NCBI RefSeq assembly: GCF_001429025.1
Contig: NZ_LMHT01000022.1
Coordinates: 124,001 to 188,000 of the forward strand
DNA from: Phenylobacterium sp. Root700
GTDB taxonomy: Bacteria; Pseudomonadota; Alphaproteobacteria; Caulobacterales; Caulobacteraceae
DNA length: 64,000 nt
Direction of reading: 5' to 3'
The notes under the pieces were generated by a model. It searched no databases. It was not told the DNA's origin and worked only from the letters and a program-made list of their open reading frames with translations. Position 1 is the stretch's first letter. Each line of letters begins with the position of its first letter. Positions 1 through 6,877 of the stretch are shown here, piece by piece. The translations under genes and the position numbers were made by a program.

Positions 1-2030
1 TCCAACGCGGCGCGCCCCAGGGCGAGGCCTACGATCTGGAAGTGAGCGGGGATCGCCTCGTCGTGACCTCAGGCGGTTCGGCCGGCCTGTTCTACGGCGC
101 TGTCAGCGTCTGGCAGCTCGCCACCGAGGTCGCGGGCAGGGGAGGCGTGGATATCGCCGCCCGCCGGATTGAGGACGCCCCACGTTTCGCCTGGCGCGGC
201 CTGATGCTCGACGGCGCCCGGCACTTCCAGGACGTGGAGTTCGTGAAGGGCTTCATCGACCGCATGGCGCTCGCCAAGCTCAACACCCTGCACTGGCACC
301 TGGTGGACGATCAGGGTTGGCGGCTGGAGATCAAGAAGTACCCGCGGCTGACCGAGGTCGGCGCCTGGCGCGTTCCCGCCGGTCCTGCCGCAGCGGCCGA
401 CATCGATCCGAAGACCGAGAAGCCGCGGGTGACCGGCGGCTTCTATACCCAGGACCAGGTGCGTGAGGTCGTGGCCTACGCCGCGGCGCGCCACATCACC
501 ATCGTGCCCGAGATCGAGATGCCGGGTCACGCGCATGCGCCCATCGTCGCCTATCCAGAGCTCGGTTCAGCGACGCCGGCGCCGACCGCGACATCCGGCG
601 ACTGGGGGGTCTTTCCCTACCTCTACAATGTCGACGACAAGACCTTCGGCTTCCTGGAAGACGTCCTGACCGAGGTCGTCGACCTGTTCCCCAGCCGCTA
701 CATCCACGTCGGCGGCGACGAGGCGGTGAAGGACCAGTGGAAATCCAACCCCGCCGTCCAGGCGCGGATGAAGGAACTTCATATCGCCAGCGAGGCCGCC
801 CTGCAGGGCTGGTTCATCTCGCGGATCGAACAGGTGCTGAACGCCAAGGGTCGGCGGCTGATCGGCTGGGATGAAATCCTCGAAGGCGGAGTCGCGCCGA
901 GCGCCACGGTGATGTCCTGGCGCGGGATCGACGGCGCCATCGTCGCGGCCAAGCTGGGCCACGACACGGTGCTGAGCCCGGCGCCGACCCTTTATCTCAA
1001 CCATCGCCAGACCGCCGCGCCGGACGGACTACCTGGCCGTGGTCAGGTGATCGGGCTGAAGGACGTCTACGACTACGATCCCATGCCGGCCGCCCTGAAC
1101 CCGGATGAACGCCACCACGTCCTGGGCGTCCAGGCCAATCTCTGGACCGAGCATATGCGCACCCAGGAGCGGGTCGCCTTGATGGCCTTCCCCCGCGCGG
1201 CGGCGCTGGCGGAAACGGCGTGGTCGCCGGCCGAACGCAAGGACTGGAAGGACTTCGCCGACCGCCTGCCAGCTGAACTCGGCCGCTATCACGCGCTCGG
1301 CCAGCCCGCCGACGAGACGGCGCTGCGCGTGCGCGCCATCGCCAGCCCGGACGGCGCAGGGGCCAGGGTCAGCCTGCTGGGCGCCGAGGAGGTGGGGGAG
1401 ATCCGCTACACCCTCGACGGCTCGGCGCCCAAGGCCTCGTCCTTGTCCTATCAGACCCCGATAGCCGCGCCGCTCGGATCGCGGATCCACGCCCAGGCGT
1501 TCCGGGACGATCAGCCCCTCGCGACCGCCTCCGAGATCGCGGTCGACGCCCGCTCGATCCGGACCCGCGCGAGCCAGGACCTGAAGTCCTGCAAGGACGG
1601 CTTAGTACTCAACCTTGAGGACGATGCGCCGGTGCGCGGCGACCGGGCGCGGTTCCTGATCGACGTCATGAACCCGTGCTGGATCTACCAGGACGCCGAC
1701 CTCGCCGGTGTGAGCGCCATCGAGGTGGCGGTCGGCCAACTGCCGTTCAATTTCCAGATCGGCAAGGACGTCGAGAACATCAAGTTCCGGCCTCCGGCCA
1801 CGCCCGACGGCGAATTGGAGGTGCGGCAGGGCTCCTGCGAAGGCGCGGTCGTCGCGACCCTGCCGCTGGCGCCGGCCACGAAATCGCAGGCGATCACCGT
1901 TCTGAAGGGTAGGATCGCCGGCGCCGCGGGGCCGCAGAACCTGTGTTTCACCTTCACCCAGAAGAGCGTCGAGCCGATGTGGGCTGTCGACCGTGTCACC
2001 CTGATCGTCGGAGGCCGCGATGACCGCTGA
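1..2030 (+). CDS. beta-N-acetylhexosaminidase, GH20 (5' end outside window)
   Basis: Removes terminal GlcNAc/GalNAc from chitin oligosaccharides or glycans, probably in the periplasm. The frame is open from base 3, so the signal peptide and true start lie upstream; 675 residues are visible. The first visible residues (EAYDLEV...GLFYGAVSVWQL) are the end of the small GH20b domain. The TIM barrel follows, with WRGLMLDGARH, LNTLHWHLVDDQGWR and the catalytic Asp-Glu pair in HVGGDE at 717-722. Next is a chitobiase-type C-terminal domain (IRYTLDGSAPKA, about 1400-1460). The last ~150 residues resemble a beta-jelly-roll carbohydrate-binding domain (inference). The stop overlaps the next ATG by 11 bases, so it is translationally coupled to the PTS genes, which fits GlcNAc release followed by uptake. 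Confidence 0.93.
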   Translation, partial: QRGAPQGEAYDLEVSGDRLVVTSGGSAGLFYGAVSVWQLATEVAGRGGVDIAARRIEDAPRFAWRGLMLDGARHFQDVEFVKGFIDRMALAKLNTLHWHLVDDQGWRLEIKKYPRLTEVGAWRVPAGPAAAADIDPKTEKPRVTGGFYTQDQVREVVAYAAARHITIVPEIEMPGHAHAPIVAYPELGSATPAPTATSGDWGVFPYLYNVDDKTFGFLEDVLTEVVDLFPSRYIHVGGDEAVKDQWKSNPAVQARMKELHIASEAALQGWFISRIEQVLNAKGRRLIGWDEILEGGVAPSATVMSWRGIDGAIVAAKLGHDTVLSPAPTLYLNHRQTAAPDGLPGRGQVIGLKDVYDYDPMPAALNPDERHHVLGVQANLWTEHMRTQERVALMAFPRAAALAETAWSPAERKDWKDFADRLPAELGRYHALGQPADETALRVRAIASPDGAGARVSLLGAEEVGEIRYTLDGSAPKASSLSYQTPIAAPLGSRIHAQAFRDDQPLATASEIAVDARSIRTRASQDLKSCKDGLVLNLEDDAPVRGDRARFLIDVMNPCWIYQDADLAGVSAIEVAVGQLPFNFQIGKDVENIKFRPPATPDGELEVRQGSCEGAVVATLPLAPATKSQAITVLKGRIAGAAGPQNLCFTFTQKSVEPMWAVDRVTLIVGGRDDR

Positions 2031-4530
2031 CCTGGTGCTGCGCTCGCCGCTGGATGGATGGGCCTCACCGCTATCGGAGGTCCCGGACCCGGTGTTCGCC
2101 GAGGCGATGCTGGGCGATGGCGTGGCGATCGACCCGACCGGCTCGACGCTCCATGCGCCCTGCGAGGGCGTGATCACCTCCATCCACGCGTCGCGTCACG
2201 CGGTGAGTTTGCGCGCCGCCGGCGGCGTCGAGATCCTGATGCATATCGGCCTGGAGACCGTCGCCATGAACGGCGAGGGTTTCGAGGCGCACGTCGTTGC
2301 GGGACAGGCGGTCGCGGCCGGTGACCGGCTGATCTCGTTCGATCTGGAGCTGCTGGCCCGCCACGCCAAGAGCCTGATCACCCCCATCGTCATCACCAAC
2401 CCAGCCGGCCGCGCGATCACCACGCGCTTTGTCGACCGCACCGTGAAAACAGGCGAGCCCTTGCTGGCCTTGTCCGGGGCGCTCGCCGGTGGCGTGGTCG
2501 CCGCCATCGCCGACACCCCCGAGTTGACCCGCGCCGTCATCGTGCCACTGATTCATGGCCTGCACGCGCGGCCCGCCGCCCGGGTAGCCGACACGGCCAA
2601 ACGCTTCGAAGCCGAGGTGTCGCTGGTGGCGCTCAATCGCCGGGCCAACGCCAAGAGCCCCATCGGACTGATGTCGCTGGGCCTGCGCCACGGCGATGCC
2701 GTCACCCTGGTCGCCACCGGTCTCGACGCCGCTGCAGCGCTCGAAGCGGTGGCGGAGCTGATCGAGGGCGGGATGGGGGAGGGCGCGCCGGTCAGGCCGA
2801 CGGTCTCCCCGGTTCCGTTCAGCGCCACGCCAACGGCCAGGCCGGGCGTCGCTGTCCTGCGCGGGGTCATGGCCTCGCCGGGCCTGGCGGTCGGCAAGGC
2901 GGTCAGGTTGTTCCTCGACGAAATCGCCGTGCCGGAACTCGGGCAGGGCGCGGCTCACGAGAAGGCGGCGCTCGACGCCGCGCTTACCGCAGTCCGGACG
3001 CGGATATCGCGGGAGGCCGAGGCCAGCGGCGGTCAGGCGCGCCGGGCGATCCTGGGCGCGCATGCCGCCTTCCTTGAGGACCCGGAGCTCACCGGCCAGG
3101 CCCTGCGGCTGATCGGCGAAGGCAAGAGCGCCGGCTATGCCTGGCGCGCGGCCATCGGCGCCTATGTCGAGGCTCTGCGCAGCCTCGGCGACCGCCGGAT
3201 CGCCGAGCGGGTCGATGATCTGTTGGATCTCGAACGGCGCGTGCTGTTGGTGATTTCCGGCCAGGAGGACCGCGGCCCGGACCTGCCGCAGGACGCCATC
3301 CTGCTCGCTGACGAACTGCTGCCGTCCCAGTTGATGGCCCTGGATCCGGCGCGGCTCGCCGGGATCTGCACCGCCGGCGGCGGACCCACCTCGCATGTGG
3401 CGATCCTGGCCGCCTCGATGGGCATCCCGGCCGTGGTCGCCGCCGGTCCTGGCGTAGCCCGCGTCAATGAAGGCACCAGCCTGATCCTCGACGCCGACGC
3501 CGGACTTCTGCACCTGGCGCCGGACGCCAAGGCGCTGGAGACCGCCCAGACCGCTCTCGCCGCGCGCAGCGAGCGCCGCATCGCCGCGCGCGCCACGGCC
3601 CGCGAGGACTGTCGGATGGCCGATGGCACGCGGGTCAAGGTGTTCGCCAACCTGGGCTCCCTGGCCGACGCCGAGGCGGCGGCCGACGCCGGGGCCGAGG
3701 GGTGCGGCCTGCTGCGCACCGAGTTCCTGTTTCTGGAGCGCGACACTGCGCCCGATGAGGATGAGCAGGCCGACGAGTACGCCGCGATCGCCCGAGCCAT
3801 CGGCGGTCGTCCCCTGATCGTGCGCCTGCTGGATGTCGGCGGTGATAAGACAGCGCGCTATCTACCCATCGCAGCAGAGGAAAATCCCGCGCTGGGCATG
3901 CGAGGAATACGCGTTCTGCTGCGCCGTCCGCATATCCTGCGGACCCAGCTGCGGGCGATCCTGCGCGGCGCGCCCCACGCCAAGATCATGGCGCCGATGG
4001 TCACTGGCCTTGGCGAACTACGCGCGGTGCGGCTGGTTCTGGACGAAGCCCGGCGTGACCTCGGCCGAGTCGGGCGGACCGACCTGGGCGTCATGATCGA
4101 GACCCCCGCCGCGGCCATGATCGCCGATCTGCTGGCGGCCGAGGCCGATTTCCTTTCGGTCGGCACCAATGACCTGACCCAGTACACCCTGGCCATGGAC
4201 CGCGGGAATCCGGACCTGGCCGGCGACATCGACGCCTTGCATCCCGCCGTCCTGCGGCTGATCGCCCAGACGACGCAGGGCGGGGCCAAGCACGCGCTTT
4301 GGACCGGGGTTTGCGGCGGATTGGCCGGGGATCTCGCCGCCGTGCCGATCCTGCTGGGGCTCGGGGTCAGCGAACTCTCCATGCCGTCCGCAGCGATCCC
4401 CGAGGCCAAGGCCATGATCCGGACGCTCTCGCCCGAGGCCTGCCGCGGTCTGGCGGCCAAGGCCCTGGCGCAGTCCTCGGCCGACGCGGTCCGGACGCTC
4501 TCCAACACCTTCCTCACCGGAGAAGCCTGA
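2020..4530 (+). CDS. nagF: PTS EIIA-HPr-enzyme I fusion (multiphosphoryl transfer protein)
   Basis: Cytoplasmic phosphorelay protein that takes phosphate from PEP and passes it to the sugar permease. Its 836 residues hold three modules in order: a Glc-type EIIA with active His75 (MHIGLETV), HPr with His182 (GLHARPAA) and the regulatory-Ser region SPIGLMSL, and enzyme I with His459 (GGGPTSHVAILA), followed by the PEP-binding barrel (SVGTNDLTQYTLAMDRGNPD) and the Cys loop (GVCGGLAGD). The order EIIA-HPr-EI is that of the GlcNAc system of pseudomonads and Caulobacter relatives. It starts inside the hexosaminidase stop region and ends one base before nagE, so one operon. Substrate specificity comes from its partners and is inferred. 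Confidence 0.95.
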   Translation: MTADLVLRSPLDGWASPLSEVPDPVFAEAMLGDGVAIDPTGSTLHAPCEGVITSIHASRHAVSLRAAGGVEILMHIGLETVAMNGEGFEAHVVAGQAVAAGDRLISFDLELLARHAKSLITPIVITNPAGRAITTRFVDRTVKTGEPLLALSGALAGGVVAAIADTPELTRAVIVPLIHGLHARPAARVADTAKRFEAEVSLVALNRRANAKSPIGLMSLGLRHGDAVTLVATGLDAAAALEAVAELIEGGMGEGAPVRPTVSPVPFSATPTARPGVAVLRGVMASPGLAVGKAVRLFLDEIAVPELGQGAAHEKAALDAALTAVRTRISREAEASGGQARRAILGAHAAFLEDPELTGQALRLIGEGKSAGYAWRAAIGAYVEALRSLGDRRIAERVDDLLDLERRVLLVISGQEDRGPDLPQDAILLADELLPSQLMALDPARLAGICTAGGGPTSHVAILAASMGIPAVVAAGPGVARVNEGTSLILDADAGLLHLAPDAKALETAQTALAARSERRIAARATAREDCRMADGTRVKVFANLGSLADAEAAADAGAEGCGLLRTEFLFLERDTAPDEDEQADEYAAIARAIGGRPLIVRLLDVGGDKTARYLPIAAEENPALGMRGIRVLLRRPHILRTQLRAILRGAPHAKIMAPMVTGLGELRAVRLVLDEARRDLGRVGRTDLGVMIETPAAAMIADLLAAEADFLSVGTNDLTQYTLAMDRGNPDLAGDIDALHPAVLRLIAQTTQGGAKHALWTGVCGGLAGDLAAVPILLGLGVSELSMPSAAIPEAKAMIRTLSPEACRGLAAKALAQSSADAVRTLSNTFLTGEA

Positions 4531-4531
4531 A

Positions 4532-6220
4532 ATGGCCTCGCCTCTCGAAGCTCTGCAGTCGCTCGGCCGCGCGCTGATGCTGCCCATCGCCGTTCTGCCG
4601 GCGGCGGGCCTGCTCCTGCGCCTGGGGCAGCCGGACCTCCTGGACATCCCGTTCATGGCGGCGGCGGGGGAGGCGATCTTCGCCAATCTTGGCCTGTTGT
4701 TCGCGGCCGGGGTCGCGGTCGGATTGGCGCGGGACAATAACGGTGCGTCGGGCTTGGCCGGCGTGGTCTGCTTCCTGATCGCCACCAAGGGCGCCGAGAC
4801 CCTGCTGCATGTGCCGCCCGAGGCGCTGAAGGGCATGGCCGGCGACGCCGTGGGCCTCGCCACCGCCGCTTTCAAGCAGAAGGCCATCGCCAAGGTCTCG
4901 GTGCCGATCGGCATCCTCTCGGGCGTGATCGGAGGTCAGTTTTACAACCGCTTCTCGAACGTGAAACTGCCGGAATACCTGGCTTTCTTCGGCGGGCGGC
5001 GTTTCGTGCCGATCATCGCAGGGCTAGCAGGCCTGGGGCTCGCCGGCGTCGTCGGCTTCACCTACGAAGGCCTCGACACCGCCATGGACGCGGCCAGCCG
5101 CGGGATCGTCGGGTCAGGGGAACTGGGGCTCTTCGTCTATGGCGTGCTGAACCGGGCGCTGATCGTCACCGGCCTGCATCACATCCTGAACAACATCGCC
5201 TGGTTCATCGTCGGCGACTTCAATGGCGCGACGGGCGACCTCAACCGCTTCTTCGCCGGCGACCCCACGGCCGGCGTCTTCATGGCCGGCTTCTTCCCGG
5301 TGATGATGTTCGGCCTGCCGGCCGCGTGCCTGGCCATGTATCACGCCGCCCCCGCGCACCGACGCAAGGCGGTCGGCGGGATGCTGGCCTCGATGGCCTT
5401 GACCACCTTTCTGACCGGGGTGACCGAGCCCATCGAGTTCAGCTTCATGTTCCTGGCGCCGGTGCTCTACGCGATCCACGCGCTGCTCACCGGCCTGTCG
5501 TTCGTGGTCATGAGCCTGCTCGATGTGAAGCTCGGCTTCGGCTTCTCGGCGGGCCTGTTCGACTATGTGCTGAACTTCAACAAGGCCACGCACCCGTGGC
5601 TGCTGGCGCCGATCGGCGCGGGCTATTTCGCGCTCTATTACGGCCTGTTCCGCTGGGCCATCGCCCGGTTTGACCTGAAGACGCCGGGGCGTGAGGCCGA
5701 GGTTGTTCCGTCCCAGGCCGTCCATGCGCCGAGCGGCCGTCGCGGCGAGGACTTCGTGACCGCCTTGGGCGGCGCCGCCAACCTCGTCAGCGTCGACGCC
5801 TGCACGACCCGGCTGCGCCTGGTCCTGGCCAATCCGACGGCCATCGACGAGGCCGCGCTGAAGGCCCTCGGTTCGCGCGGCATGGTGCGGCCTTCGGAGA
5901 AAGGCCTGCAGGTCGTGCTCGGGCCGATCGCCGATCAGGTGGCCGGCGAAATGCGCCAGTCCATGGCCGCCCAAGGCGCTTCGACCACCAAGGCCCAGAG
6001 CCTCGTCGCCCCAACGCATGGCGTTGATCTCGCGCGCTGGACGCCGGCGCTGGGCGGCTTGGCCAATGTTCGCCAGATCGAATTCCTGGCGGGCAGAATT
6101 CTGGCGGAGCTCAATGACGTCGCCGCCGTGGACGAGCCAGCGCTGCTGGCGCTCGGCGCACGCGGGATCGCGCGGCCGGCGCCAGGGCGCGTCCAGGTTT
6201 TGCTGAAGGTCGTCGTTTAG
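4532..6220 (+). CDS. nagE: PTS N-acetylglucosamine permease EIICB with a second, Cys-less EIIB-like domain
   Basis: Inner-membrane permease that imports and phosphorylates GlcNAc. Residues 1-380 are the glucose-family EIIC, with multiple membrane segments and the signature GVTEPIEFSFMF. An EIIB domain follows, with the phosphorylated Cys424 in VDACTTRLRL. After a short linker the last ~60 residues repeat the EIIB pattern: ALGGLANVRQIEFLAGR against ALGGAANLVSVDACTTR, then ALGARGIARP against ALGSRGMVRP. In the copy the Cys position is Leu519, so it cannot carry phosphate. There is no EIIA on this protein; EIIA comes from the upstream fusion. GlcNAc rather than glucose specificity rests on the neighbouring hexosaminidase. 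Confidence 0.93.
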   Translation: MASPLEALQSLGRALMLPIAVLPAAGLLLRLGQPDLLDIPFMAAAGEAIFANLGLLFAAGVAVGLARDNNGASGLAGVVCFLIATKGAETLLHVPPEALKGMAGDAVGLATAAFKQKAIAKVSVPIGILSGVIGGQFYNRFSNVKLPEYLAFFGGRRFVPIIAGLAGLGLAGVVGFTYEGLDTAMDAASRGIVGSGELGLFVYGVLNRALIVTGLHHILNNIAWFIVGDFNGATGDLNRFFAGDPTAGVFMAGFFPVMMFGLPAACLAMYHAAPAHRRKAVGGMLASMALTTFLTGVTEPIEFSFMFLAPVLYAIHALLTGLSFVVMSLLDVKLGFGFSAGLFDYVLNFNKATHPWLLAPIGAGYFALYYGLFRWAIARFDLKTPGREAEVVPSQAVHAPSGRRGEDFVTALGGAANLVSVDACTTRLRLVLANPTAIDEAALKALGSRGMVRPSEKGLQVVLGPIADQVAGEMRQSMAAQGASTTKAQSLVAPTHGVDLARWTPALGGLANVRQIEFLAGRILAELNDVAAVDEPALLALGARGIARPAPGRVQVLLKVVV

Positions 6221-6232
6221 CGGCCGCGAGCG

Positions 6233-6877
6233 TCAGCCGTCGGTGCGGTCGTAGGAGAACTGGATGCCGGCCGTGCCGCCGGTCTCGATGAACAGGTTCA
6301 TGAAGGCTGGAACCGTCGCGCTGCGGGCCCAGTCACGTTGCAGCTCGCAGAACAGCTGCGGCACGCTGATCATCTTGCCGCCGGCCTGTTCGATCCGGCG
6401 TAGGGCCGCGTCATGGGCGGCGAGCGATGTGCCGCCGACGGCGTCGGCGACGACATAGACCTCGTACCCGGCCGCCATCGCGTCGAGGGCGGGGAAGGTG
6501 AGGCAGGCCTCGGTCCAGAGCGCCGTCATGATCAGCTTCTTGCGACCGGTCTTCTCGACCGCCTCGCGGAATTCGACGTCCTCCCACGAGTTGATGGTCG
6601 TGCGGTCGTAGGTCGGGAACTCGCCCAGCACCTTGCGCAGCTGCGGGATCGGCGGCTTGTTCAGTCCGGTCTTCACGTTCACCGTCGAGTGGACAATGGG
6701 CAGGCCATAGGCCACCGCGGCCTTGGCCGCGCCGACGATGTTGTTGACCAGCAGTTGCCGGTCCATCGAGGCGATCGAGTTCACCTGCACAGGTTGGTAG
6801 TCGATGATGACGAAGGCGGAGTTCTGAGGCGTCAGCAGGTCATCGCGAACAGGATCGCGGATAGGTTCGCTGGTCAT
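6233..6877 (-). CDS. isochorismatase-family (YcaC-like) hydrolase
   Basis: Cysteine hydrolase of the isochorismatase fold, 214 residues, closest in pattern to YcaC. The nucleophile is probably Cys125 (ALWTEACLTFPALDAM) with Asp26 (FVIIDYQ); Lys82 is the likely third residue. The ATG at 6877 is preferred over upstream in-frame starts because a GAGAGA ribosome site precedes it and family homology begins there. It lies downstream of the pirin gene on the same strand, about 147 bases away with a hairpin between. The substrate is not predictable from sequence. YcaC relatives have unknown or broad amidase-like roles. Confidence 0.85.
   Translation of the reverse strand: MTSEPIRDPVRDDLLTPQNSAFVIIDYQPVQVNSIASMDRQLLVNNIVGAAKAAVAYGLPIVHSTVNVKTGLNKPPIPQLRKVLGEFPTYDRTTINSWEDVEFREAVEKTGRKKLIMTALWTEACLTFPALDAMAAGYEVYVVADAVGGTSLAAHDAALRRIEQAGGKMISVPQLFCELQRDWARSATVPAFMNLFIETGGTAGIQFSYDRTDG

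Follow-up and report, generated by a model that had tools for sequence, protein, structure and literature searches.

The window – the whole stretch of DNA analysed, 64,000 nucleotides of Phenylobacterium sp. Root700 – carries at its start three genes on the forward strand, the last of which encodes a sugar permease with two EIIB domains. The features are as follows.

3–2030, forward strand: upstream open reading frame, open at the window start, beta-N-acetylhexosaminidase-like by its translation.
2020–4530, forward strand: partner gene, an EIIA-HPr-EI fusion (NagF-like) of 836 amino acids, assigned from its Pfam domains and holding the one PF00358 match of the genome.
4532–6220, forward strand: nagE-like gene, EIIC-EIIB1-EIIB2, 562 amino acids, a putative GlcNAc-type EIICB permease (TIGR01998; Pfam PTS_EIIC 13-321, PTS_EIIB 407-439).
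5741–5959, forward strand: EIIB1, residues about 404-476, with CTTRLR (Cys424, Arg427, Arg429); Pfam PTS_EIIB, 46.6 bits.
5960–6028, forward strand: linker between EIIB1 and EIIB2, of low model confidence at residues 484-496 (pLDDT below 50 there; pN/pS 0.55).
6029–6217, forward strand: EIIB2, residues about 500-562 (42.0 bits to the EIIB1 HMM; model pLDDT 86.6; PDB Z 9.8).

The product of 4532–6220 is a putative GlcNAc-type permease: against TIGR01998 (N-acetylglucosamine IIBC) it scores 639.3 bits, in two matched stretches and above the cut-off of 553.2, with the neighbouring fusion and the hexosaminidase-like frame as context. A single base separates the stop codon of the fusion from the start of nagE. 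The fusion comprises EIIA (residues 7-128), HPr (170-249) and PEP-utilising enzyme domains between 281 and 802, all by Pfam. The frame at 3–2030, whose translation reads as a putative beta-N-acetylhexosaminidase-like enzyme, fits with use of GlcNAc. Searching the host genome (4.58 Mb, 99.94% complete) at E <= 0.001 returned one match to PF00358 (EIIA-Glc), in the fusion gene adjoining nagE, and one to PF00367, in nagE itself. A promoter and terminator scan of 5900–6500 found neither.

The first-pass annotation of this DNA had described the end of NagE as a repeat of the EIIB pattern, with Cys424 matched by Leu519, and both statements are confirmed. Taken alone, the tail (5960–6217) matches positions 407-463 of TIGR01998 (E 1.1e-6), and an HMM built from 116 EIIB1 domains, one of them the window's, gives it 42.0 bits, where the best of 5000 shuffles of the tail reached 13.1 bits. 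Against Pfam the window tail alone matches no family at E <= 10; PF00367 is matched by 65 of the 73 tails in our alignment at E <= 0.1. EIIB1 and EIIB2 are identical at 23 of 56 residues over EIIB1 408-463, and the alignment pairs Cys424 with Leu519, Arg427 with Arg522, Arg429 with Leu524 and Gln460 with Gln555. There is no Cys in the 88 residues of the tail, the only His of which sits in the linker, and the active-site motif C-x-T-R-L-R fails at its first place, taken by Leu519. Of the two active-site arginines of the EIIB class, the first is kept (Arg522) and the second replaced by Leu524. To judge from these residues, the missing Cys means that EIIB2 cannot transfer phosphate by the EIIB-type Cys route, and it is for this route that the earlier claim that a Cys-less copy is unable to carry phosphate would hold.

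A tail that did not fold as EIIB would have spoken against a repeat; the models predict the opposite. AlphaFold2, given an alignment of 73 tails (A2: the window's and 72 of 79 named tails, near copies being left out), returned a tail model with a mean pLDDT of 86.6 and the order helix, strand, strand, helix, strand, strand. Among solved structures it superposes best on E. coli EIIB-Glc, with Z 9.8 and an rmsd of 1.6 A (62 residues) for chain C of 3bp8, Z 9.5 for 3bp3 and Z 9.2 for 1o2f, and Foldseek also puts these three at the top. A profile of the 73 tails likewise matched glucose-class EIIB structures with an E of 1.9e-15. A second alignment (A3) held 54 of the 79 named full proteins. In the full-length model the last helix of EIIB1 lies at 467-480 and EIIB2 has no such helix, so that the window copy is, as modelled, a shortened EIIB from which the C-terminal helix is absent. 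Confidence falls below a pLDDT of 50 at residues 484-496, a segment of the linker that is probably flexible.

We considered whether a frameshift or an assembly fault could account for the short end. The EIIB helix is not continued in one other forward frame after 6100, nor is it continued in nagE's own frame past its stop; moreover L190, the nearest relative, also ends without the last helix. On these grounds such a cause is unlikely.

The architecture raises the question of a role within the permease: EIIB2 might pack on EIIB1 or EIIC, or join two permeases, and so tune the conformational change without binding EIIA. EIIB2 and the rest of the permease form one chain, joined by a linker that is probably flexible, and shortened copies may bare a face otherwise hidden by the last helix. 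However, the dimer interface of the solved EIICB lies in EIIC, and a purely structural role leaves unexplained both the conservation of an Arg beside a lost active site and the company of the fusion, to which we come below. We regard a role confined to the permease as distinctly unlikely.

A survey of NagE proteins for the duplication, as called for in the first-pass annotation, showed that EIIB2 is an ordinary feature of the GlcNAc EIICB permease family and not special to this genome. Searches with TIGR01998, which are independent of the tail, gave matches at E <= 0.001 in 11 of 60 relatives, in 12 of 289 genomes at class level and in 57 of 398 at phylum level. A further 80 named loci were added, and as the query that ranked them by similarity contained the tail, this choice favours rows with a tail. 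The single-EIIB rows of the trees, 15 at first and 20 later, were hand-picked from more. The first set thus drawn up holds 117 permeases (the window's is one of them), each read with the flanks of its locus, and yields 116 distinct C-terminal segments once L123 is dropped. In length, 113 of these could accommodate a second EIIB, and the EIIB1 HMM matches every one of the 113, the weakest (L189) at 8.9 bits; the three short segments (L181, L182, L195) have no fusion within the loci read. L123, a Sphingomonas record, has a frameshift inside EIIB2, with the remainder of the domain in another frame, and is left out of all counts.

A later set comprised 13 plasmid records out of 589 with a match. 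Eight of the 13 have the fusion together with a long tail, and the HMM matches four of these eight at 11 to 34 bits (L218, L219, L222, L225). The others (L213, L214, L223, L224) are all from fusion-linked plasmids of Novosphingobium; since their long tails score below 8 bits, EIIB2 appears nearly erased there. These worn tails still measure about 75 residues and show, by eye, Arg-Leu after the Cys place and HLLF near the end. Beyond the phylum of the window, EIIB2 is found in L115 (Myxococcota) and L219 (Gemmatimonadota). An oddity of one lineage is ruled out by these two records and by the relatives across the phylum.

Several further observations were made in passing. L218 and L222, the two annotated EIIB2-bearing records inspected, name the protein only IIBC. 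A locus of the same genus as the window (L012, G004:C30) has a nagE frame that is missing the greater part of EIIC as well as the beginning of EIIB1, its EIIB2 tail being open, which could be an assembly fault or a deletion. Two closely similar nagFE-like pairs occur in each of two genomes (L175/L176 in G664; L057/L070 in Caulobacter sp. BP25). Finally, L202:1-7001 (G165:C5:38000-45000) has three small EIIC-less frames, of 179-181 codons stop to stop, each with two tandem EIIB domains that both have their Cys intact.

The columns of the alignment show what EIIB2 has kept and what it has shed. Cys is present at the place of Cys424 in 116 of 116 EIIB1 domains and in 15 of 113 EIIB2 domains. The Arg three residues further on is the most conserved column of EIIB2 (110/113) and the sole invariant one in the 73 aligned tails; the three copies without it (L185, L186, L187) are glucose-type rows. 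The second Arg, at +5, is kept in 74 of 113. The last helix is retained in all 15 Cys-bearing copies and is gone from 27 of the other 98, that is, from 27 of 113 overall. On the permease tree, parsimony puts the changes of the Cys state at 7 or more and those of the last helix at 8 or more.

The nearest row of an EIIB2 is another EIIB2 in 111 of 113 cases when 229 EIIB domains are placed in one tree, and a recent duplication in the lineage of the window is thereby ruled out. The two exceptions are L115, nearest its own EIIB1, and L188, nearest the EIIB1 of L195. Because these two copies, the ones nearest to EIIB1, both keep Cys, we read the order of events as duplication first and loss of Cys later.

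The chief rival to docking, the reading we favour and develop below, sees in EIIB2 what is left of an old duplication, slowly decaying and tolerated at the C-terminus though it has no task to perform. The small number of copies that still have Cys and the repeated absence of the last helix are as decay would have them, as are the four Novosphingobium tails too worn for the HMM and the frameshift in L123; the window copy is, moreover, among the more reduced ones. Rates of substitution point both ways. Over 26 hand-picked pairs pN/pS is 0.13 for EIIC, 0.17 for EIIB1, 0.42 for EIIB2 and 0.55 for the linker (the gap between EIIB2 and linker being given as plain values); over the 17 pairs with EIIC pS below 0.35 the values are 0.12, 0.12, 0.38 and 0.51. 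EIIB2 thus evolves at about two and a half times the ratio of EIIB1, as a remnant might, but its ratio remains below 1 and below that of the linker. Selection on EIIB2 is, on this account, relaxed but purifying. The comparison of the window with L190 runs the same way (dN/dS 0.44 for EIIB2, 0.18 for EIIB1), and together with the loss of the second Arg and the last helix from the window copy this also suits decay. Against a mere remnant stand an open frame in 113 of the 114 long tails of the first set, L123 being the exception, across several families and with L115 and L219 besides; the near-invariance of one Arg; and the confident model of the domain. On balance a remnant seems unlikely to us, though it merits being taken seriously.

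A second column deserves comment. Gln460 is kept in 116 of 116 EIIB1 domains but is matched by His in 98 of 113 EIIB2 domains, the window being among those that keep Gln (Gln555); the near-constant His may be a sign that the last strand has taken on a different role. This His, and the Cys kept in a minority of relatives, would be consistent with an EIIB2 that is still phosphorylated, on another residue, and serves as a reservoir or relay. The window copy, however, has neither the Cys nor that His, and the same His occurs in the stand-alone tandem EIIB proteins of L202, which keep both Cys. Phosphorylation of EIIB2 is accordingly the most improbable of the roles considered here.

The distribution of EIIB2 follows that of the EIIA-HPr-EI fusion closely. 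EIIB2 is accompanied by the fusion, whole or in part, in 113 rows of the first tree (130 permeases), 13 have neither, two have EIIB2 only (L102, at a contig edge, and L188) and two the fusion only (L197, L199); the EIIB2 rows are the 113 matched by the HMM plus L210 and L211. In the extended tree (142 rows, with plasmid records added and L102 left out) the corresponding figures are 121, 18, one and two, the four worn Novosphingobium tails being counted as EIIB2 (117 without them). In both trees "fusion" denotes a match to EI or HPr in the locus, sometimes a piece cut by a contig edge. Among the 79 named EIIB2 rows EIIA, HPr and EI are found together in 67, all three joined with the permease in one, EI only in six, HPr and EI in two, EIIA and HPr in two, and none in one. 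A sign test on independent pairs found three pairs in each tree and none opposed (median p 0.5 in the extended tree and 1 in the first); the association falls short of significance because there are too few independent events.

L188 has two EIIB domains and no fusion in the 11 kb read, and L197 and L199 have the fusion yet encode a NagE with one EIIB, that of L199 having EIIC and EIIB separated by a long Ser/Thr/Asn-rich stretch. In L097 and L113 the gene before NagE is an EIIA-HPr, like a small FPr, with no EI match in the locus, and NagE keeps EIIB2. Where EIIA is fused behind EIIB there is a single EIIB, in 13 of 13 cases (L026, L131, L132, L145-L154) and also in L220 (Priestia). HPr, EI and EIIA are separate genes in L221 (Haliovirga), and here too EIIB is single. 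Three NagE proteins of Azospirillum (L215-L217) end after EIIB1 and have no fusion within 3.5 kb. In the tree they fall within the clade that bears the fusion; their sister there (support 98) is L115, from Myxococcota, a row with the fusion and with an EIIB2 in which CTTRLR is fully retained. Because the Azospirillum rows are sister to L115, whose EIIB2 is nearest its own EIIB1, this looks like loss of the old EIIB2 followed by a fresh duplication where the fusion works, with the search for the fusion covering 3.5 kb.

A further group (L185, L186, L187, L210, L211), from two other families, forms a clade far from the NagE rows in the tree, at a place that drew a long-branch warning. Two of its members, L210 and L211, were scanned with TIGR02002 and proved to be glucose-type (679.8 and 658.8 bits, cut-off 591.8). 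All five rows combine the fusion, of which L185 shows the EI part only (contig edge), with a degenerate EIIB2. Each of these five EIIB2 domains gets a higher score from the NagE EIIB2 profile than from either EIIB1 profile, as an origin from NagE might have it, but the EIIB2 profile is the looser one.

The duplication itself, the EIIB fold, the loss of Cys, the near-invariant Arg and the company of the fusion are the established parts from which an explanation must be built. We propose that EIIB2, a duplicate of the EIIB already present in the permease, has been retained as a non-catalytic, tethered site at which the EIIA of the fusion docks – a reading we hold tentatively, giving it close to an even chance. 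Phosphate would pass from PEP to EI, to HPr and to the fusion's EIIA, which would hand it to Cys424 of EIIB1, from where the incoming sugar would receive it. On EIIB2 the EIIB surface about the missing Cys, with Arg522 at its centre, would be offered without a phosphate acceptor, and the domain would so hold the fusion at the membrane; because the acceptor is missing, there would be no competing transfer. Should the fusion dimerise via EI, EIIB2 could be occupied by one EIIA as the second passes its phosphate to EIIB1. The binding of EIIA, the dimer arrangement and the gain in transfer are what the docking model adds, and they are put forward as proposals.

Of the roles offered in the first-pass annotation – a regulatory domain, a dimerisation domain, or a domain that binds phospho-EIIA without transfer – the last appears to fit best, given the near-invariant Arg and the fact that the genome's one PF00358 match is fused next door; the claim is to that extent partly supported. 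The Arg three residues after the Cys place is presumably a contact for EIIA: in E. coli EIIB-Glc, R424 and R426 reportedly pair with two acids of EIIA-Glc, according to a 2003 paper on the EIIA-EIIB structure. We aligned 110 EIIA rows, most taken from fusions and a few from EIIA fused to permeases, with E. coli EIIA-Glc: both His are present in 110, the first acid is Asp in 110 and the second is Asp or Glu in 109. A counter to docking is that Arg +3 is missing from three aligned glucose-type rows that have EIIB2, and the conserved Arg may be structural or serve another partner.

One such partner might be a transcription regulator, to which EIIB2 would report transport for the control of nag genes, as E. 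coli EIIB-Glc does with the repressor Mlc. The best PDB match of the tail model, 3bp8, is an EIIB in complex with Mlc, and since EIIA and Mlc are served by the same EIIB surface the conserved Arg fits both alike. Mlc, however, reads the phosphate state of EIIB, and a domain without Cys would have no such state to report; we consider a regulatory contact of this kind improbable.

E. coli EIIB-Glc (PtsG; 3bp8, 3bp3, 1o2f) has the fold predicted for EIIB2, but the window copy is without its Cys, its second Arg and its C-terminal helix. The N-acetylglucosamine EIICBA (NagE, NF007608/PRK10255) shares with the window protein the EIIC-EIIB1 core that places the latter above the TIGR01998 cut-off. It ends in EIIB-EIIA, whereas in the window EIIB2 stands in that place and EIIA belongs to the EIIA-HPr-EI fusion. 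A second EIIB in NagE may already appear in the survey of PTS genes in Pseudomonas that Reizer and others made in 1999. The literature passages searched gave no description of one, and those of PMC8745565 and PMC13104625 contain nothing on it. NagF-NagE of Ralstonia eutropha H16 is, like the window pair, a two-protein GlcNAc PTS of an EI-HPr-EIIA fusion and an EIIBC (PMC3222305). In the passages describing it the permease is termed EIIBC and a second EIIB goes unmentioned.

A likeness in plan, and the precedent on which the docking model draws, is offered by FruA and FruB/FPr of the E. coli fructose PTS, described as an extra permease EIIB (IIB') and a multi-domain phosphoryl donor partner. 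The primary paper on IIB' is reportedly that of Charbit in 1996. The IIB domains of FruA are of the fructose class, which is another fold family, and lie N-terminal to EIIC; EIIB2 of NagE differs in having a predicted glucose-class fold, in being C-terminal and in being shortened. That the tails are not fructose-class follows from the PF00367 matches and from the profile match to glucose-class structures already given. Sections of two papers state that IIB' serves protein-protein contact and not transfer (PMC6872149; PMC2405797), and section 12 of the latter adds that FruA transporters have their IIB domain in duplicate and that E. coli needs both to reach full activity, and it suggests FruB as the source of the fusions that contain a glucose-type EIIA (PMC2405797). 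The window pair shows the same plan – a Cys-less duplicate with a multi-domain donor next door – as a likeness of sequence alone. EIIB2 is, by its sequence, like IIB' in plan and not a member of that family.

It is conceivable, if doubtful, that a more general rule lies behind these cases: permeases fed by a soluble multi-domain donor (EIIA-HPr, mostly with EI) would gain a spare EIIB as a docking clamp, separately in FruA-FruB, in NagE-NagF and in the glucose-type permeases, with Cys lost repeatedly and the donor-contacting Arg kept in the GlcNAc line. Because a dead copy of a catalytic domain is kept beside a live one, the arrangement suggests that delivery of the donor, and not chemistry, limits these two-protein sugar importers. 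Seen against the known systems, the second EIIB of NagE is a variant of a known design, with nothing strange in kind, and through it an arrangement familiar from the fructose PTS reaches a large set of GlcNAc permeases.
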